Shown: positions 1,908 through 10,744 of the stretch, in pieces
Numbering within the stretch: the stretch's first letter is position 1
Layout: each line of letters begins with the position of its first letter
NCBI GenBank assembly: GCA_016931055.1
Contig: JAFGFL010000060.1
Coordinates: 1-35,064, forward strand
From: Candidatus Omnitrophota bacterium
GTDB lineage: Bacteria > Omnitrophota > Gorgyraeia > Zapsychrales > Zapsychraceae
DNA: 35,064 nt
Direction of reading: 5' to 3'
Made by a program: the position numbers and the translations under genes
The notes under the pieces: generated by a model
The model's database searches: none
Told to the model about the DNA's origin: nothing
The model's input: the letters and a program-made list of their open reading frames with translations, nothing else

Positions 1908-3065
1908 ATGACTTTTATTTTCTGGCTTCTATTATTGCTGATTATTTATTGTTACTTCGGCTATCCAATTCTTTTGTGCTGTCTGAGCTGGATCCTGGAT
2001 CGTCCGGTTATGAAAGGGGAATGGGAACCGACGGTCTCGGTTGTTCTTTCGATTTGGAACGAAGAGGATGTTATCGAACGCAAGGTCAAAAATCTATTGT
2101 CACTGGAATATCCTGCCGAGAAAATCGAATTCTTGATCGGGTCGGATGGCTCATCAGACCAAACCAATGAAATCATCCGTCAAATTTCGGATCCGCGGGT
2201 TCACTTTATAGAGAGCGTAAAACGGCGAGGGAAAATGGCCACTCTTAATGAGCTGGCCAAGGCAGCGAAACATGAGGTCATTGTTTTTACGGACGCCCGT
2301 CAGACATTCAAAAAGGACGCGGTAAGGGTTTTAGTACGTAATTTTAATGATCCAAAAATCGGGTGTGTGAGCGGAGAGCTTATGCTTGCCGAGAAAGAGG
2401 GGGCGACCGCGAAAGGAATCAGCCTTTACTGGAATTATGAGAAATTTATCCGCAAGGCGGAAAGCCGCATCCATTCCATGTTGGGCGCGACGGGTGCGAT
2501 TTACGCGATCCGCCGGGAATTATTTTTGGCAATCCCGGAACATATCGTTCTCGACGACATGTTTGTGCCGTTTAAGATTATTCAAAAAGGGTACCGCGCG
2601 GTCTTTGATTCTTGCGCGATTGCCTATGATGAAGTTGCCGATAGCCCAAAGGAAGAATACCGGCGCAAGGCCCGAACGCTTTATGGGAATTACCAGATAT
2701 TCTGGTCTTTCCGTGACATGTTCAATCCTTTCAAAAGCCCAATCGCGGTTCAATTGTTTTCCCATAAATTCTTGCGGGTTTTAATACCGTTTTTTATGAT
2801 TGCGCTGTTTTTCATGAATTGGCATTTGAGTAGCCGATTATTGTACGGATTGTTTTTTGACCTGCAGAAAATATTTTATCTCATGGCTGTCATTGGCGGC
2901 TTGGCAAGGAACCAAAAGTATGGTATCCTCAAAGGCATTTCCAAAGCGTGTTATATTCCTTATGTGTTTTGCTTGCTCAACTTTTCCGCGTTTGTTGGCT
3001 TTATAAGGTTTATTATTATAGGTCAGGAGATTCGGTGGGAAAAGGCGAGAGAGAAAGAGGCTTAG
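1908..3065 (+). CDS. Glycosyltransferase family 2, membrane-bound processive type
   Basis: This 385-residue GT-A glycosyltransferase has one N-terminal membrane segment (residues 3-29), a cytoplasmic catalytic domain and about three C-terminal membrane segments from residue 290 on. Catalytic-domain landmarks are SDGS (79-82) for nucleotide binding, TDAR (128-131) in the place of the DxD metal motif, GATGAIYA (193-200), the LDDM acid (215-218) and RRKAR (252-256) in the place of the QxxRW motif. That layout is shared with cellulose/hyaluronan synthase-like enzymes that polymerise and export sugar chains. A TTG at 1869 would extend the frame but lies inside the repeat array, so the ATG at 1908 is chosen. 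Exosortase begins six bases after its stop. The sugar used cannot be told from sequence. Confidence 0.93.
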   Translation: MTFIFWLLLLLIIYCYFGYPILLCCLSWILDRPVMKGEWEPTVSVVLSIWNEEDVIERKVKNLLSLEYPAEKIEFLIGSDGSSDQTNEIIRQISDPRVHFIESVKRRGKMATLNELAKAAKHEVIVFTDARQTFKKDAVRVLVRNFNDPKIGCVSGELMLAEKEGATAKGISLYWNYEKFIRKAESRIHSMLGATGAIYAIRRELFLAIPEHIVLDDMFVPFKIIQKGYRAVFDSCAIAYDEVADSPKEEYRRKARTLYGNYQIFWSFRDMFNPFKSPIAVQLFSHKFLRVLIPFFMIALFFMNWHLSSRLLYGLFFDLQKIFYLMAVIGGLARNQKYGILKGISKACYIPYVFCLLNFSAFVGFIRFIIIGQEIRWEKAREKEA

Positions 3066-3070
3066 ATATT

Positions 3071-3892
3071 ATGGTCAAGACGGTTCTTAAAAATCATTTG
3101 AAACTGTTATGTGCGGCGGCTGTTTTTTTGTTTTCCTATGTCCCGACTTTTATCTGGATGTGGGACCGGTGGTTCGCGCGGGATTCCTATTACAGCCACG
3201 GGGTCCTCGTGCCTTTTGTGACGGCGTTCTTAATATGGCAGAAGAGGGGAGAGCTCACCTCGACGGAAAAGAGCGAATCAGGATGGGGGATGCCCCTGAT
3301 TGTTGCGGGGATGCTCTTGCATATTTTCGCGTCACTCTTGCGGGTCTATTTTGTTTCCGGGTTTTCAATGCTGATCGTGCTGGCGGGGTTGATCCTTTAT
3401 TTTTACGGCTTGGCGGTATTTCAAAAAATCCTTTTCCCCGTTTTATTCCTGGTCTTTATGGTCCCCATGCCGCTGATTATCATCACCAATGTCAGCTTTC
3501 AGATGAAGATTTTCGCGGCGAAAATCGCAGCAGGAATTTTAAATAACATCGGGATACCGGCCTTGCGCCAGGGCAGTTTGATCATCATGAGAAATGCCCA
3601 GGTTGTTGTCGATGACGTCTGCAGCGGTTTGAGGTCGCTGATCTCTTTGATGGCCCTGGGGAGCATTTTCGCGTACTGGATGAAGTCATCGGCCGTCAAA
3701 AAATATGTGTTGTTTGCGGCTACGATCCCGATTGCCGTTTTGACGAATGTGGCGCGGATCATTTTTCTTTCATCCATCGCGGAAATCTGGGGGCCGCAAT
3801 CCGCGATTGGTTTTATCCATGACGCGTCCGGTTTTCTCGTTTTCGCGCTGGCATTTATTTTACTTTATGTGATGGTGAGGATATTGGAATGA
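3071..3892 (+). CDS. Exosortase (XrtA/EpsH-like membrane transpeptidase)
   Basis: Exosortases are multi-pass membrane enzymes that recognise PEP-CTERM C-terminal signals, cleave them and pass the protein to the envelope. This 273-residue protein has about eight hydrophobic segments and all three active-site landmarks: Cys184 in DDVCSGLRS, Arg229 in TNVARI and His250 in FIHDASGFLVF. YYSHG at 40-43 near the first loop is also typical. The reading frame extends upstream in the same frame, but the ATG at 3071 gives a normal N-terminus and sits just after the glycosyltransferase stop. Its stop overlaps the start of the EpsI-type gene by four bases. Likely substrates encoded in the window are the two PEP-CTERM proteins at 4819 and 5714. 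The exact exosortase subtype cannot be assigned without a profile search. Confidence 0.95.
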   Translation: MVKTVLKNHLKLLCAAAVFLFSYVPTFIWMWDRWFARDSYYSHGVLVPFVTAFLIWQKRGELTSTEKSESGWGMPLIVAGMLLHIFASLLRVYFVSGFSMLIVLAGLILYFYGLAVFQKILFPVLFLVFMVPMPLIIITNVSFQMKIFAAKIAAGILNNIGIPALRQGSLIIMRNAQVVVDDVCSGLRSLISLMALGSIFAYWMKSSAVKKYVLFAATIPIAVLTNVARIIFLSSIAEIWGPQSAIGFIHDASGFLVFALAFILLYVMVRILE

Positions 3893-4533
3893 AGCGTCAT
3901 AAGACCGACATCCCGTTTTACCTGATCATCGCCATGTCCCTTATCGCGGGGATCATATCGTGGCGGATCTATTTCAAGGTTTATCGCCAGGACGACACTG
4001 TCAATATCCATTATTTTCCGAAGCAAATTGAGGATTGGACGGCCGAGGAAATACCCATTTCCGATGATGATAAGGCCATGCTTGAGACGGATAATGTCTT
4101 TATCCGCCGTTATGCGAATGCGCGGGATGAAGAGGTCTTTTTGTTTGTTGTCTATTCCCAGAATAACCGCAAAGTTTCACATCCGCCGGAAATCTGTTAC
4201 ACGGGAGGAGGGGCCGCCATCCTCAACAATGTCCATGATTCTTTTGTTTCGGCGGCTGGCGGTGAAGAGATACAGGTGAACCGTCTGAGGGTCGAAAGAG
4301 GCGGCGCAGAACAAATCTTTGTTTACTGGTTCAAAGTGGGGGATTCTTTTACCTCCAATTATTGGGTACAGCAAGGGCAAATTGCCTTAAGGTCCTTTTT
4401 AGGGCGGCCTGCCAGCAGCGCGCTTATTAGGATCTCTTCAACGGTCAAGAATGGAAAAGAAACAGAGGCAACCGAAGTCATTAAGAAATTCGGGCGGCTG
4501 ATCGTTTCACATCTGCTCAAATACCTTCCATAA
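3889..4533 (+). CDS. epsI: EpsI-type exosortase-associated protein (DUF3485)
   Basis: The gene overlaps exosortase by ATGA, the usual arrangement for this family, which is elsewhere also found fused to the exosortase C-terminus. One N-terminal membrane segment (residues 9-29) is followed by an extracytoplasmic domain of about 180 residues. The family signature HPPEICYTGGG is at 98-108, preceded by the strand FLFVVYSQNNRKVS. EpsI-type proteins are needed with exosortase for exopolysaccharide production in methylotrophs, though their chemistry is not established. Length (214 residues) is normal. No terminator is clear after the stop; the next 285 bases form a regulatory gap before the sigma-54 promoter. 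Confidence 0.92.
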   Translation: MKRHKTDIPFYLIIAMSLIAGIISWRIYFKVYRQDDTVNIHYFPKQIEDWTAEEIPISDDDKAMLETDNVFIRRYANARDEEVFLFVVYSQNNRKVSHPPEICYTGGGAAILNNVHDSFVSAAGGEEIQVNRLRVERGGAEQIFVYWFKVGDSFTSNYWVQQGQIALRSFLGRPASSALIRISSTVKNGKETEATEVIKKFGRLIVSHLLKYLP

Positions 4534-4630
4534 TTTTAATAATCATTTGAAAATAATTATAAGAATATCATTATAAGTGTTTAGTAACATAAACGCATGT
4601 TCATAAAAGTCAACATAAAAACCGCCACAA

Positions 4631-4658
4631 ATGTCATGACATGTCTATGCATGTCATA
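4631..4658 (+). promoter_or_regulatory. Candidate upstream activator sequence, phased ATGTC repeats
   Basis: ATGTC occurs at 4631, 4641 and 4651, exactly ten bases apart, so on one face of the helix. The first is part of the perfect palindrome TGTCATGACA (4632-4641). The block lies roughly 120-145 bases before the expected start of the sigma-54 transcript, the normal place for an enhancer-binding activator site. Assignment to the regulator at 9338 is inference. Confidence 0.55.
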
Positions 4659-4670
4659 CTATAACCTACC

Positions 4671-4678
4671 AAGCGCTT
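4671..4678. promoter_or_regulatory. AAGCGCTT palindrome, copy 1
   Basis: An 8-bp perfect palindrome within the sigma-54 control region. A second, longer copy (GAAAGCGCTTTC) occurs at 4791-4802 between the promoter and the start codon. Two copies flanking the promoter suggest a second DNA-binding protein, but one 8-mer can arise by chance. Confidence 0.35.
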
Positions 4679-4748
4679 TTTCCTTCTTATAACTTCATTA
4701 TTTTCAAGATGTTATAGAGATAAAAAATTTTTTCAAAATAGCTAGATA

Positions 4749-4765
4749 TTGGCATGGTATTTGCT
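4749..4765 (+). promoter_or_regulatory. Sigma-54 (RpoN) promoter of the PEP-CTERM pair
   Basis: TTGGCATGGTATTTGCT matches the -24/-12 consensus (TTGGCAC-N5-TTGCT) almost perfectly. The GG at 4751-4752 and GC at 4763-4764 are separated by the required ten bases. Transcription should start near 4776, giving a leader of about 43 bases before the ATG at 4819. It stands in a gene-free gap beside a sigma-54 activator operon and upstream of PEP-CTERM genes, which are known RpoN/PrsR targets in Zoogloea. Confidence 0.85.
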
Positions 4766-4790
4766 CATTTAAGGGTATCTGCTGAAAAAA

Positions 4791-4802
4791 GAAAGCGCTT
4801 TC
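4791..4802. promoter_or_regulatory. GAAAGCGCTTTC palindrome in the leader
   Basis: A perfect 12-bp palindrome lies in the 5' leader of the sigma-54 transcript, 16 bases before the start codon. It could be an operator or a small RNA hairpin limiting translation, since no Shine-Dalgarno sequence is visible before this ATG. It shares AAGCGCTTT with 4671-4679. Confidence 0.4.
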
Positions 4803-4818
4803 AATAGCGAAAAATAGT

Positions 4819-5670
4819 ATGAGTCGAATCCCTAAAAAAGTGAAAAGTTTGTTGGCGGTATTTGCGATTATGACCGTTTTGGCGGCATTCGTAAGTACTG
4901 CTTGGGCAACGTTTTCTGCAATAACTTCCGTTGAGAAATCGTATCGTTATGATCTTAATGAGGGGCCTGATGTTGTCAAAATCGGCACGGAAAGAGCTCC
5001 GAGAGCGCGTGCACCTGAACCTACGACATTAGCTTTATTCGGAAGCGGCCTTATGGGTATGATCATTAGTTTTGTGCGGCGGACATATGCCAGGGCAAAA
5101 CGGATTTTTGATATTCTTGCCTCTATTGTTGGGATAATGGCGCTATCGCCGGTATTCCTTCTTACGGCGTTATTGATAAAATTGACTTCCAAGGGGCCGG
5201 TTTTCTATTTTCAAGTGCGGGTTGGGAAAATGGGAAGGCTCTTTAATATGTATAAATTCCGGACCATGAAAGTGAATGCGGAGAAGGAAACAGGACCGGT
5301 TTGGGCGGCTGCAAATGATAACCGTTTAACGCCAATCGGCAATTTTTTGAGGAAAACGCATATTGATGAGATCCCTCAGTTCATTAATATTCTCAAGGGG
5401 GAGATGAGCCTTATCGGGCCGAGGCCGGAGCGGCCGGTCTTTGTTGAGAGATTTAAAGAAGAAATTAAGGGTTATGAGCGGCGGCTTGCCGTTAAGCCGG
5501 GGATCACCGGGTTAGCTCAGGTTTGGCATCGTTATGATGAAACGATTGCGGATGTAAAAAAGAAGCTCAGGTATGATCTTCTGTACATCGAGAAGATGTG
5601 TTTCTGGGCGGATATCAACATTATGCTGCGTACCTTCCGCGTTGTTGCGACGGGCGAAGGCGCGCGATAA
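4819..5670 (+). CDS. PEP-CTERM signal fused to a sugar transferase (monotopic phosphoglycosyl transferase)
   Basis: One uninterrupted 283-residue frame joins two modules. Residues 1-30 are a signal peptide (basic start, hydrophobic core, AWA end). A short segment (31-65) leads to PEP at 66-68, a hydrophobic helix (71-86) and arginines from 87 on, the complete PEP-CTERM signal. From residue 95 it is a bacterial sugar transferase: reentrant helix near RIFDILASIVGIMALSP, GPVFYFQ (126-132), MYKFRTM (144-150), the catalytic Asp-Glu pair D183-E184 in HIDEIPQFINILKGEMS, GPRPERP and KPGITGLAQV. Such enzymes put the first sugar phosphate on undecaprenyl phosphate. The topology fits: N-terminus outside, PEP-CTERM helix crossing inward, enzyme in the cytoplasm. 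No SD precedes the ATG; an internal ATG at 5053 has GGAAG seven bases upstream and could yield the transferase alone. Transcribed from the sigma-54 promoter. Confidence 0.92.
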   Translation: MSRIPKKVKSLLAVFAIMTVLAAFVSTAWATFSAITSVEKSYRYDLNEGPDVVKIGTERAPRARAPEPTTLALFGSGLMGMIISFVRRTYARAKRIFDILASIVGIMALSPVFLLTALLIKLTSKGPVFYFQVRVGKMGRLFNMYKFRTMKVNAEKETGPVWAAANDNRLTPIGNFLRKTHIDEIPQFINILKGEMSLIGPRPERPVFVERFKEEIKGYERRLAVKPGITGLAQVWHRYDETIADVKKKLRYDLLYIEKMCFWADINIMLRTFRVVATGEGAR

Positions 5671-5713: not shown

Positions 5714-6013
5714 ATGAAAAACAGTCTTTCAAAAATCATGAAACTGGTTGCAATGGCTGGGACGCTTCCTTTTATTTATGGATGCGGTTCTGGCGGCGGC
5801 AGTTCATTGGCCAGCACTCTATTTGGCCCTGATAGCGGTATCAGTGATACCCTGTCTAGCTTAGGGTCAAGCATAGATCTGTCCAGCGCCAGCTCAAGCC
5901 TCACTCAAGGGGCAACGGAGCTTGCTACATTGCATCAACCTGAACCTGCCAGTATGTTGCTGTTGGGAAGCGGTTTGATTGCGGCCATGTATTTCTCACG
6001 CCGTAAGAAGTAA
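5714..6013 (+). CDS. Small PEP-CTERM sorting-domain lipoprotein
   Basis: This 99-residue protein has an N-terminal export signal ending in IYGC, a plausible lipobox with Cys24, followed by a flexible Gly/Ser-rich region (GSGGGSS). The middle is low-complexity, dominated by Ser, Leu, Ala and Thr. The C-terminus is a textbook PEP-CTERM signal: PEP at 76-78, hydrophobic helix 80-94 and RRKK at 96-99. It is thus a probable substrate of the exosortase at 3071, with the unusual prospect of a lipid anchor at one end and a processed sorting signal at the other. The ATG is preceded by GAGGAG (5702-5707) with ideal spacing, in contrast to the gene before it. It shares the sigma-54 transcript and is followed by a strong terminator. 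Ser-rich PEP-CTERM proteins are often surface or matrix components. Confidence 0.9.
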   Translation: MKNSLSKIMKLVAMAGTLPFIYGCGSGGGSSLASTLFGPDSGISDTLSSLGSSIDLSSASSSLTQGATELATLHQPEPASMLLLGSGLIAAMYFSRRKK

Positions 6014-6100
6014 CGACATCTTCCACAATTAACCAAGTGATATAACTGGATATTTTATTCAGATATATTGGATAATCTATGTTTAGATGGTATGTATAGA

Positions 6101-6138
6101 ATAGGGTAGGTTATAGATAGACAACCTACCCTATTTTT
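6101..6138 (+). terminator. Intrinsic terminator after the PEP-CTERM pair
   Basis: A perfect 12-bp stem (ATAGGGTAGGTT at 6101-6112 with AACCTACCCTAT at 6123-6134) encloses a 10-base loop and is followed directly by a T-run. It lies 88 bases after the PEP-CTERM stop and isolates the sigma-54 unit from the sigma-70 operon that follows. Confidence 0.92.
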
Positions 6139-6195: not shown

Positions 6196-6224
6196 TTGAC
6201 ACTTTATCTTGATTTTGATAGAAT
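6196..6224 (+). promoter_or_regulatory. Sigma-70 promoter of the two-component operon
   Basis: TTGACA (6196-6201, perfect -35) and TAGAAT (6219-6224, five of six matches to -10) are separated by 17 bases. Transcription would start near 6231, giving a leader of about 48 bases before the ATG at 6279. Confidence 0.85.
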
Positions 6225-7154: not shown

Positions 7155-8050
7155 AAAAAGCCTGTTTGATTTATTTGATTATTCTGGCCGGATTGTATGC
7201 GGTTTTGTCCTTGTTTGACCTCAAAGGCGATTACATTGTTGAAAAGAAAATTTGGAAGCTTTATCAGATGCAACTGGATATCGCGAAAGACCCGAGGGTG
7301 ATCCCCGATCTGACCTTTAAAAACGTTATTGACGGATATCGGAAAGTTATAGAACAGTATCGCGGTTCGCGTTTGACGCCGACCCTTTATATCCGGCTTG
7401 GGGAAGTTTATTCCCTCAAAAAGGATTATGAACAGGCGCGGAAAACGTTTCATGAGACGATAAAACGTTATCCTGATAATCACGATCTTTCAGCTCAGGC
7501 CATGTTTGAAATAGGCAAGACCTATGAGCTGGAGCAAAATTGGATTGAGGCCAGCAGGGTTTATAACGCGATCATCCGGGAATACTCTGAAACCGAGACG
7601 GCGATGTCGGTGCCGATCTACATAGCGAATTATTATAGAAACCAGAACGATTCTCAAATGACGAAAGAGGCTTATGAGGTCGCCAGGCGATATTATAAGA
7701 AAATGGCGGCTGACTATACGGACACGAAAGTCGGGTTAAACGCCTTGCGCTATCTTTCCAATTGTTATCTTGAGCAGAAAGGTTGGAATCATGCGGTTGA
7801 AACATTGGGGACTATTATTGAAAAATACGCGCAATACGGATATTTGCCGATTGACGATATGGAAAAAATGATCAAGACCATCAATATTATTAGTGCGTAT
7901 AAGATTAAAAATTACGATAAGGCGATCCTGTTATACCAGGGGATTATTGACCGGAATCCGAACCATCGCTTTAGAGGATATTTACAGAAGATGATTGACG
8001 CCTTTCAGCAATTAAAAAAAGAAGATCTCAAGGCCTCGAACCTTGAATAA
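7151..8050 (+). CDS. Membrane-anchored TPR-repeat protein
   Basis: Residues 5-22 (CLIYLIILAGLYAVLSLF) form an N-terminal signal anchor; the rest is helical with tetratricopeptide-type repeats. Clear units are around TPTLYIRLGEVYSLKKDYEQARK (about 76-98), AQAMFEIGKTYELEQNWIEAS (about 117-137), ALRYLSNCYLEQKGWNHAVE (about 196-215) and NYDKAILLYQGIIDRNPNH near the end. TPR domains bind other proteins, and the anchor places this one in the periplasm. It sits between the six-helix protein and the histidine kinase with overlapping or one-base junctions. In proteobacterial exosortase systems a TPR lipoprotein, PrsT, accompanies the PrsK/PrsR pair; this protein is positioned like an analogue, but I see no lipobox and cannot claim orthology. 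Confidence 0.85.
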   Translation: MKKACLIYLIILAGLYAVLSLFDLKGDYIVEKKIWKLYQMQLDIAKDPRVIPDLTFKNVIDGYRKVIEQYRGSRLTPTLYIRLGEVYSLKKDYEQARKTFHETIKRYPDNHDLSAQAMFEIGKTYELEQNWIEASRVYNAIIREYSETETAMSVPIYIANYYRNQNDSQMTKEAYEVARRYYKKMAADYTDTKVGLNALRYLSNCYLEQKGWNHAVETLGTIIEKYAQYGYLPIDDMEKMIKTINIISAYKIKNYDKAILLYQGIIDRNPNHRFRGYLQKMIDAFQQLKKEDLKASNLE

Positions 8051-8051
8051 G

Positions 8052-9338
8052 ATGAGCGTTTTGCAGAAGCCGATTTTTGAAGAAGGGCAGCTGACGGATC
8101 TTTTCCGTAAAATAAATGATATTTGCGGCGTTGTTGATTTTGTCGACAACACGGACAAGCTCTTTGAAATCACATTGCATAAAATTACGGCTTTATTCCG
8201 GGCGAGCCGCGGGTCTATCTTCACGCTGAGGGAAAACAGCGACGAGCTTGTCATGATTACGGCGGTCGGGGCACAGCGTCAAGAAGAGAGGGCCATGGTC
8301 AAGCGCATAGGCGGCAGCATTGTCGGCAAGGTCGCGGAACAGAAGCGGCCCATTGTTGTCGAGGACATCGGGAAAGACGGCAGGTTTGCCAATTTCAAGC
8401 CCCGCAAAAGTTATAAGACGCCTTCGTTCATTTGCGTCCCGTTGATGGTCAAGGACAATCTTTTGGGGGTCATCAACATTGCGGACAAAGAATCCGGATT
8501 GCACTTTACGACGAATGAGATGCAGCTTTTGGATTTTTTATCGAGCCAAATCGCGCTCAATTGCAGGCGGATCCAGCTTTACCAAAAGTTCGAAAAAAGC
8601 ATTAAAGAAGCCCAGAAATTGAAAGACCGGCTGGGGCGAAGAGATCAGGAAGCGGAAAATCTTAAGAAGCAAATCGACATCCAGGAAAAATTGGCCACGC
8701 TGGGGAAATTAGCCGGCGGGATCGCCCATGAATTTAATAATCCCCTGGACGGGGTCATGCGCTACACGAATTTGAGCCTTGAGCTCGTTCACGATGATGT
8801 GGTCAGAGGGTATCTTCTGGAAGTGAAACACGGGCTGGACCGCATGGCGAATATCGTCAAAAACCTTCTGGCGTGCACGCGCAGCCAGTCGATTGCGACC
8901 GAACGGGCGGATTTTAAGGAAGCGTTGGATTATGCGTTGGCAGGCTTAAAGGCGGAGATCGCGCATAAAAATATTAAAATTGAGAAGCGCATTCAGGACG
9001 ATCTTCCTTCGATCCTGGACCTGGGCATTGAAGGGGTCTTGACGAATCTTTTGCACAACGCGGCTGATGCCGTTAATAAAAACGGCACCATCAAGGTCCA
9101 GATCAGTTGTCAAAACGATGTTTTGACGATCGCTGTCAGCGATACAGGGCGGGGGATCGCAAAAGAAGATTCCGAGAAGATCTTCGAACCGTTCTTTACG
9201 ACGAAGGAAATGGACAAGGGGTGCGGCCTGGGCTTGACCATTGTGGCCGAAATCGTGAAAAGCTACGATGGGAGTATCCGTGTTGAAAGCAAGCTGAATG
9301 AGGGGTCTGTTTTTACGATCAATTTACCGGTGAAATAA
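8052..9338 (+). CDS. GAF-domain sensor histidine kinase (PrsK-like)
   Basis: The 428-residue kinase has a GAF domain (about 15-175), a short coiled coil (about 180-220), a HisKA dimerisation domain with the phospho-accepting His in GGIAHEFNNPL (about 222-232), and a HATPase domain with N box LTNLLHNAADAV, G1 box DTGRGI, F box FEPFFTTK and G2 box GCGLGLTI. There is no membrane segment, so it is cytoplasmic and must receive its signal through the GAF domain or a partner. The frame could start at a TTG at 8043; the ATG at 8052, just after the TPR stop, is preferred. Its stop overlaps the activator start by one base, so the two are almost certainly a cognate pair. The GAF-HisKA-HATPase order matches the cytoplasmic half of PrsK, whose membrane half is missing here. 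Confidence 0.93.
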   Translation: MSVLQKPIFEEGQLTDLFRKINDICGVVDFVDNTDKLFEITLHKITALFRASRGSIFTLRENSDELVMITAVGAQRQEERAMVKRIGGSIVGKVAEQKRPIVVEDIGKDGRFANFKPRKSYKTPSFICVPLMVKDNLLGVINIADKESGLHFTTNEMQLLDFLSSQIALNCRRIQLYQKFEKSIKEAQKLKDRLGRRDQEAENLKKQIDIQEKLATLGKLAGGIAHEFNNPLDGVMRYTNLSLELVHDDVVRGYLLEVKHGLDRMANIVKNLLACTRSQSIATERADFKEALDYALAGLKAEIAHKNIKIEKRIQDDLPSILDLGIEGVLTNLLHNAADAVNKNGTIKVQISCQNDVLTIAVSDTGRGIAKEDSEKIFEPFFTTKEMDKGCGLGLTIVAEIVKSYDGSIRVESKLNEGSVFTINLPVK

Positions 9339-10744
9339 TGGTCTCATGGAAGGAAATAAACAAGAAATACAACATCCTGGTGGTTGACGATGAGCCGCTC
9401 ATACGGGAGTCCCTTTATGAAATCCTGCGGATCGAAGGCTATCATGTGCAAATGGCCCCGGGAGCGCCGGAGGCCTTGAAACTCATGTCCCATAACAAGT
9501 TTGATGTGGTTGTTACAGATTATAAGCTCTCAAAAATGAGCGGGATGGAGCTTCTGGAAGCGGTAAAAAAGGATTCTCCGGAAACGGAGGTGGTCATGAT
9601 TACCGGTTACGGGTCGATTGAGACAGCCGTTGAGGCCATGAAAAAAGGCGCTCGGGATTATATTACCAAGCCGATCAATGATAATGAATTCAAGATCATC
9701 ATACAGAAAACGGTTGAGAATAAGGATATTCTTGAAGAAAACAAAACTTTGAAGGAGATGCTGGCCAGGGAACATCGCAGCGCGTTTGGAGCCATGATCG
9801 GAGCCAGCGAGAAAATGCAGAGTGTTTACCGCATCATCGATTCTGTGGCAAGCACGAACGCGACCATCCTTATTGCTGGGGAGAGCGGCACCGGGAAGGG
9901 CTTGATCGCAAAGGCGATTCATGAGAATGACAAGGCCCGTAAGGATAAACCGTTTATTGAGGTAAGCTGCGGCGCTCTTTCGGAGACTTTGCTGGAAAGC
10001 GAGCTTTTTGGACATGTTAAAGGGGCGTTTACCGGGGCGATCAAAGATAAAGAGGGGCGCTTTGAGTATGCGGACGGCGGAACAGTCTTTTTGGATGAGA
10101 TTGATGCCTTTTCATTGAACCTGCAGGTAAAGCTGCTTAGGGTATTGCAGGATGGCGTTTTTGAGCGCGTGGGGGATAATGTGACCCGCAAGACCCATGC
10201 GCGGATCATTGTGGCGACCAACCAGGTCTTGACGGATCTGGTGGAAGCCGGAAAATTCCGCGAAGACCTTTTTTATCGGGTCAATGTTATTGCGATACAG
10301 GCCCCGCCGTTACGGGATCGCAAAGATGATATTGGGCAAATTGCGGCGCATTTCCTTGAGAAATACAGCCGGATTAACAATAAAAAGGTTGATAAGCTAT
10401 CGGATGAAGTTATCGAGATATTCCGGTCATATTATTGGCCGGGAAACGTGAGGGAATTGGAGAATGCAATCGAGGGGGCTGTGATCATGGCCAAAACCGA
10501 GACGGTCCATAAGGATGATATCCCCAATATCTCAAAATTTATCTATGAAGGGATTGCAGATTTTAGCGAAAAAACGCTAAAAAAAGCGGTTGAAGAACCG
10601 GAACGCGAGCATATCATCTCCGTTCTTAATGATTGCAATTGGAACAGGAACAGGGCGGCGGAGGTCCTAGGGGTCAACCGGACGACGCTTTATAATAAGA
10701 TGAAAAAGTACAATATTTTTGGAAACGCCAAGAGGTCCGAATGA
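9338..10744 (+). CDS. Sigma-54-dependent response regulator (NtrC family, PrsR-like)
   Basis: The 468-residue protein has three intact domains. The receiver (8-125) has the acidic pair VVDDEP and phosphorylation site Asp61 in VVVTDYKLS. The AAA+ domain (about 150-385) has Walker A GESGTGKG (181-188), the GAFTGA loop that touches sigma-54 (229-234), Walker B TVFLDEID (249-256) and the later YYWPGNVRELEN region. A Fis-type helix-turn-helix ends the protein (NRNRAAEVLGVNRTTLYNKM). With GAFTGA intact it should remodel sigma-54 polymerase at a -24/-12 promoter. The only such promoter I see in the window is the PEP-CTERM one at 4749, beyond the terminator upstream of this operon, so this is its best candidate regulator. 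PrsR performs that job in other exosortase systems; orthology needs a tree. Confidence 0.96.
   Translation: MVSWKEINKKYNILVVDDEPLIRESLYEILRIEGYHVQMAPGAPEALKLMSHNKFDVVVTDYKLSKMSGMELLEAVKKDSPETEVVMITGYGSIETAVEAMKKGARDYITKPINDNEFKIIIQKTVENKDILEENKTLKEMLAREHRSAFGAMIGASEKMQSVYRIIDSVASTNATILIAGESGTGKGLIAKAIHENDKARKDKPFIEVSCGALSETLLESELFGHVKGAFTGAIKDKEGRFEYADGGTVFLDEIDAFSLNLQVKLLRVLQDGVFERVGDNVTRKTHARIIVATNQVLTDLVEAGKFREDLFYRVNVIAIQAPPLRDRKDDIGQIAAHFLEKYSRINNKKVDKLSDEVIEIFRSYYWPGNVRELENAIEGAVIMAKTETVHKDDIPNISKFIYEGIADFSEKTLKKAVEEPEREHIISVLNDCNWNRNRAAEVLGVNRTTLYNKMKKYNIFGNAKRSE

Follow-up and report, generated by a model that had tools for sequence, protein, structure and literature searches.

The window, one entire 35,064-nt contig of a draft Omnitrophota genome (2.2 Mb, 89% complete), holds a cluster of genes for a polysaccharide deacetylase, a glycosyltransferase, an exosortase, EpsI, a fusion protein, a small PEP-CTERM protein, a membrane protein, a TPR protein, a histidine kinase and a response regulator. 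The sorting enzyme, an exosortase of the EpsH family (3059-3892, + strand), scored 178.5 bits against TIGR02602 (cut-off 105.55), and the exosortase-associated EpsI behind it (3889-4533, +) scored 98.5 bits against a cut-off of 42.8. Next stands a gene for a 283-residue fusion protein (4819-5670, +; PF02397 and PF07589) composed of a signal peptide, a short exported stretch, a PEP-CTERM helix and a bacterial sugar transferase, a layout which is conserved across several Omnitrophota families. Its internal PEP-CTERM segment at codons 65-88, claimed in an earlier sequence-only reading of this DNA, was recovered by PF07589 over the same residues (24.8 bits, cut-off 20.7). The PEP triplet is kept in 28 of 30 fusion orthologues, the exceptions being SEP in G004 and PES in G026. 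The following gene (5714-6013, +) encodes a small PEP-CTERM protein with a lipobox-like IYGC; it is conserved in relatives and sometimes duplicated, as in G002 and G004, and among its relatives a PF[IV]YGCG lipobox region and PEPASMLL are conserved. The two PEP-CTERM motifs of this genome, both over the PF07589 cut-off, thus fall within the transcription unit of the fusion and, with the EpsH-family exosortase, make up a PEP-CTERM/exosortase system.

The limits of this unit are suggested by its layout. Only 43 nt separate the fusion from the ORF at 5714-6013, which is followed by a Rho-independent terminator (6098-6137, +; 15-bp stem, -19.7 kcal/mol, z -5.5, then a T-run). Beyond the hairpin, a consensus match to a sigma-70-like promoter (TTGACA-17-TAGAAT with an extended -10; 6196-6224, +) precedes an operon which ends in the kinase and regulator genes. 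Joint control of the fusion and the small lipoprotein by a single upstream promoter, as had been proposed, is supported by this arrangement. Within the region ahead of the fusion, no sigma-70-like promoter was found on the + strand between 4575 and 4819, and searches of the leader for riboswitches or other RNAs returned no credible Rfam match.

The sequence TTGGCATGGTATTTGCT at 4749-4765 (+) is the candidate for that promoter, and the near-perfect sigma-54 site with GG and GC ten bases apart that had been claimed lies exactly here. GG occupies 4751-4752 and GC 4763-4764, as the -24 and -12 positions with ten-base spacing demand; the -24 element reads TTGGCATG and the -12 element TTGCT. The core fits TGGCAYR-N4-TTGCW and shows a single departure, C to T, from TGGCACG-N4-TTGCW. 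Between the core and the ATG at 4819 lie 53 nt, and transcription would be predicted to start at about 4775-4777. Exact matches to TGGCAYGN4TTGCW number one in the 2.2-Mb genome, namely this site, where our own estimate from base frequencies gives a chance expectation of about one. Permitting one mismatch raised the count to 18, within noise of the 16 found with a reversed-pattern control, and a genome-wide excess of sigma-54 sites was accordingly dropped as a line of evidence. With a chance match expected and no separation from the control, the motif alone is weak evidence, and position and conservation must therefore carry the case.

Orthologues of the fusion (E < 1e-60) were found in about 36 of 91 relatives. 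Locus L021 represents a congener of the present genome (Omnitrophica WOR_2 RIFCSPHIGHO2_02_FULL_52_10). The pattern TGGYAYR-N4-TTGCW stands 13-74 nt before the likely ATG of the fusion in 27 of 30 orthologous loci which, coming from related genomes, are not independent trials. Dinucleotide shuffling of the same upstream regions left an average of 0.010 loci with a core in every 30, and the 226,212 positions scanned in these loci contained no other core. Across 22 genera the core is near invariant while its flanks have diverged. An A-tract about 24 bp upstream of the -24 element (4722-4727, +) is also conserved, with A in about 20 of the 22 genera. Between this region and the repeats described below, a possible inverted repeat, TTATAAC...GTTATAG (4685-4716), is echoed in some relatives; it was discerned by eye only in some loci, motif searching and positional conservation gave no clear separation, and it was rejected as a fixed element. 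Among deeper Omnitrophota, near-matches TGGCACAGATACTGCA (L022:3148-3163) and TGGCATGGATGGTGCA (L023:6484-6499) lie upstream of a non-fused transferase devoid of PEP-CTERM. Since these transferases also have near-consensus sites, sigma-54 control may predate the fusion, and they are suggestive of a control independent of the PEP-CTERM part.

The distribution of rpoN provides a second line of evidence. Scored by PF04552 over its cut-off, the gene was present in 41 of 92 genomes, and its occurrence follows that of the fusion closely: 32 genomes have both, five the fusion only, nine rpoN only and 46 neither (p=1.4e-11). Restricting the comparison to genomes at least 90% complete gave corresponding counts of 20, 1, 3 and 23 (p=3.6e-9). 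All 25 fusion loci from rpoN-positive genomes carry the site, and the three loci lacking it, from G013 and G024 (one genus) and from G056, are all rpoN-negative (p=0.002); the rpoN-negative genomes with a site before the fusion are the present one and G023. G013 and G056 keep the membrane and TPR genes next to the fusion but lack the kinase/regulator pair there, and no close orthologue of the response regulator was found in G013, G024 or G056. The G056 locus has TTGACA-16-TATACT upstream of the fusion (L144:13770-13797, -), at the place where relatives have the sigma-54 site, and a switch of promoter class to sigma-70 is possible there. As a general feature of rpoN-less genomes such a switch was not upheld: it is clear only in G056, and since general sigma-70 scores fail to separate the groups it is put forward tentatively. 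Taken together, conservation at orthologous loci, co-occurrence with rpoN and the rpoN-negative status of every site-less locus strongly support the original proposal, and we assign a probability of roughly 0.92 to 4749-4765 being the sigma-54 (RpoN) promoter of the fusion operon.

Promoters of this class would require an activator, and the upstream region offers a plausible docking site for one. Three tandem TGTC repeats with an exact 10-bp period begin at 4632, 4642 and 4652 (4632-4660, +), about 100-118 bp upstream of the -24 element in the window and centred about 100-130 bp upstream overall. The array is present in 20 of the 27 loci with a core; here WGTC-N6-WGTC yielded 29 pairs at period 10, where shuffling gave a mean of 0.1 pair, and no pairs were seen in the 27 loci at periods 6-9 or 11-13. 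A composite pattern of two repeats plus core matched 18 of the 92 genomes with no control matches, and its occurrences precede the fusion or, in G022, G039 and G049, another PEP-CTERM gene. The phased repeats are a probable enhancer (UAS) for an NtrC-type activator. Candidates for the sensor and activator are encoded in the same cluster: a GAF-domain histidine kinase identified by profile matches (8043-9338, +) and, overlapping its end, an NtrC-type response regulator with a receiver, a sigma-54 AAA+ domain bearing GAFTGA, and a Fis-type HTH (9338-10744, +).

The leader contains a further element that the sequence-only reading had not mentioned. At about +15 lies a perfect palindrome, GAAAGCGCTTTC (4791-4802, +), which resembles a cre/LacI-type operator. 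Its counterpart GAAARCGYTTTC recurs at about the same offset in 15 of the 27 loci (two mismatches or fewer), compared with a mean of 0.45 and a maximum of 2 after shuffling. LacI-family operators have CG-centred symmetry, and it is in this symmetry that GAAARCGYTTTC resembles the cre sites of CcpA and the operators of its relatives. Nearly every genome examined, the present one included, encodes one LacI-family regulator; the protein of this genome, encoded at L200:1537-2541, differs from the characterized branches in fitting RbsR, PurR, CytR and CcpA only below their cut-offs. On these grounds we lean towards a LacI-family protein binding the palindrome, presumably as a repressor acting just after the transcription start.

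Several alternatives were weighed against these observations. Were the core a fortuitous match, with a sigma-70 promoter or read-through out of the exosortase operon supplying the transcript, the single match expected per genome and the lack of any genome-wide excess would be readily explained. The comparison of orthologous loci effectively refutes this: 27 of 30 loci against 0.01 expected, with no sites elsewhere in the same loci, can hardly be fortuitous, and 4575-4819 offers no good sigma-70 match on the + strand. We regard the chance explanation as scarcely credible. It could also be supposed that the species has truly lost rpoN and that the promoter is a relic, its site now decaying or recognized by a different sigma factor. 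The earlier reading had itself held that a genome without rpoN would refute a sigma-54 promoter, and this is literally what the 89%-complete draft returned, there being no match to Sigma54_DBD or RpoN. The gene is apparently absent from about half of the relatives as well, and G013, G024 and G056 illustrate fusion loci with neither site nor rpoN, one of them with a sigma-70-like sequence in its stead. However, only 4.8 kb of the contig precede the fusion, and in nine relatives rpoN is found 22-50 kb upstream of it, in opposite orientation. A PEP-CTERM-type chain-length determinant, encoded just past the divergent neighbour of rpoN in relatives, was not found in the draft either. Because rpoN would thus be expected past the contig end, and because a gene close to it is missing too, an assembly gap is probably the explanation and is likelier than loss; as empty searches cannot prove a gap, we infer it. 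The congeners G002 and G004 are rpoN-positive, as are congeners of G023. Furthermore, site, repeats and palindrome are all intact in this genome, the repeats being among the cleanest observed, and an NtrC-type regulator with GAFTGA is retained, while genomes from which rpoN seems truly absent lack site and regulator alike. A relic promoter consequently appears improbable.

Granting a genuine sigma-54 promoter, its activator might nevertheless be some other NtrC-family protein than the regulator of the pair encoded at 8043-10744. First-look counts suggest that these genomes have many NtrC-type candidates, G014, G015, G018 and G049 have the site and repeats but no orthologue of the regulator at the threshold used, and in G034 the orthologue lies about 15 kb from the fusion. 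Against this, orthologues of the regulator co-occur with the fusion (28 genomes with both, nine with the fusion only, six with the regulator only and 49 with neither; p=2.6e-10), they belong to the cluster of the fusion in several relatives, locus L023 included, and they are missing from all three site-less genomes. We therefore consider a different activator unlikely, and the regulator at 9338-10744 a likely one. This assignment is less secure than that of the promoter, since a strict TGTC pair is absent in 7 of the 27 loci and four genomes with the site lack the orthologue.

With the sigma-54 promoter as the preferred reading, the following course of events may be envisaged. RNA polymerase carrying sigma-54 would bind the -24 and -12 elements and stay in a closed state until an NtrC-type activator acts. 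That activator, most likely supplied by the GAF-kinase/response-regulator pair 3-6 kb downstream in the same cluster, would bind the TGTC repeats at 4632-4660 and remodel the polymerase through looping of the intervening DNA. The transcript would start near 4775, run through the genes of the fusion and of the small lipoprotein, and end at the hairpin at 6098-6137, with a LacI-family repressor probably adding a second control at GAAAGCGCTTTC near +15.

Whether the same promoter class serves other PEP-CTERM genes, a check the sequence-only reading had recommended, cannot be addressed within this genome, because both of its PEP-CTERM genes sit in one operon; the relatives do provide an affirmative answer. 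Scanning with TTGGCAYRN4TTGCW gave 82 sites in the 41 rpoN-positive genomes and 34 in the 51 rpoN-negative ones. Among the former, 27 of 82 precede the fusion and at least 10 of 82 precede another PEP-CTERM gene within 1.5 kb. The rpoN-negative genomes have 2 of 34 sites before the fusion (the present genome and G023) and, among the matches listed, none of 34 before another PEP-CTERM gene. Perfect cores also lie between rpoN and a divergent polysaccharide-export gene in G002, G004 and G006, the three relatives inspected for this feature. The congeners G002 and G004 have a further core, the identical TGGTATACTTCTTGCA, directed at rpoN itself (L135:8131-8958, L136:5825-7155). As both directions of the divergence then carry a full sigma-54 core, autoregulation of rpoN is suggested in these two congeners. 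A broader proposition, which we judge to be about evenly balanced, is that in part of the Omnitrophota sigma-54 has become a near-dedicated sigma factor for exosortase and exopolysaccharide functions. Its gene would stand beside the export operon with a -24/-12 site of its own, and its recognisable targets would comprise the export operon together with PEP-CTERM genes, the fusion among them; control would involve an enhancer not described for PrsR, joined by a LacI-type operator immediately past the start, and where a lineage drops rpoN, the enhancer, the promoter and the activator would go with it. That some relatives lack rpoN, site, enhancer and regulator all at once amounts to a natural experiment, which backs the sigma-54 assignment without cultivation.

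The nearest known system is that of Haft et al. 2006 (PMC1569441), who described sigma-54 boxes before PEP-CTERM genes in association with PrsK, PrsR and PrsT, reported these motifs in Proteobacteria only and noted that other control elements were still to be discovered. The likenesses are considerable: sigma-54 -24/-12 motifs before PEP-CTERM genes, an upstream activator motif, an NtrC-type regulator and a histidine kinase near exosortase and exopolysaccharide genes, and a TPR protein in the cluster. The activator motif of that system is a 17-nt sequence which ends in TTTACA and precedes the sigma-54 motif by about 63 nt (PMC1569441). Neither TTTACA nor TGTAAA occurs in 4534-4748, where the TGTC array with its 10-bp period is found instead. 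The regulator of the window scored 405.8 bits against TIGR02915 (PrsR), below the cut-off of 502.6, and the kinase 91.3 bits against TIGR02916 (PrsK), below the cut-off of 300, its best stretch covering only the C-terminal kinase part and the N-terminal part of PrsK being lacking. Because both proteins fall short of their family cut-offs and the enhancer differs, we have not filed the system as PrsK/PrsR. The suggested extension of PrsK/PrsR logic to another lineage thus stands as regards the sigma-54 sites and the role, in which the kinase and regulator appear PrsK/PrsR-like, and does not stand as regards family membership and enhancer motif.

The literature searched yielded no account of either sigma-54 in Omnitrophota or a fusion between PEP-CTERM and a sugar transferase. 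The present assignment would carry sigma-54 control of exosortase substrates, until now described for Proteobacteria, into a second phylum, and would supply for Omnitrophota a control element with a specific enhancer motif, a candidate activator, a candidate repressor and a list of targets. Experimental parallels come from Proteobacteria. The pepA gene of Aquincola tertiaricarbonis is RpoN-dependent, with a TGGCAC/CTGCTT promoter and a mapped start, and RpoN is needed for flocculation (PMC9850573); PEP-CTERM genes of Zoogloea resiniphila depend on PrsK/PrsR, as cited in PMC9012009. Those systems share with ours a PEP-CTERM gene read from a sigma-54 promoter and a sugar transferase gene next to prsK, and differ in having separate genes for the transferase (epsB2) and the PEP-CTERM protein. 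The gene under control in the Omnitrophota is not just cargo but a sugar transferase which bears an internal exosortase signal and is of the kind that initiates glycan chains; as transferase and signal reside in one gene, the start of polysaccharide synthesis and the supply of exosortase substrate would be switched on together.
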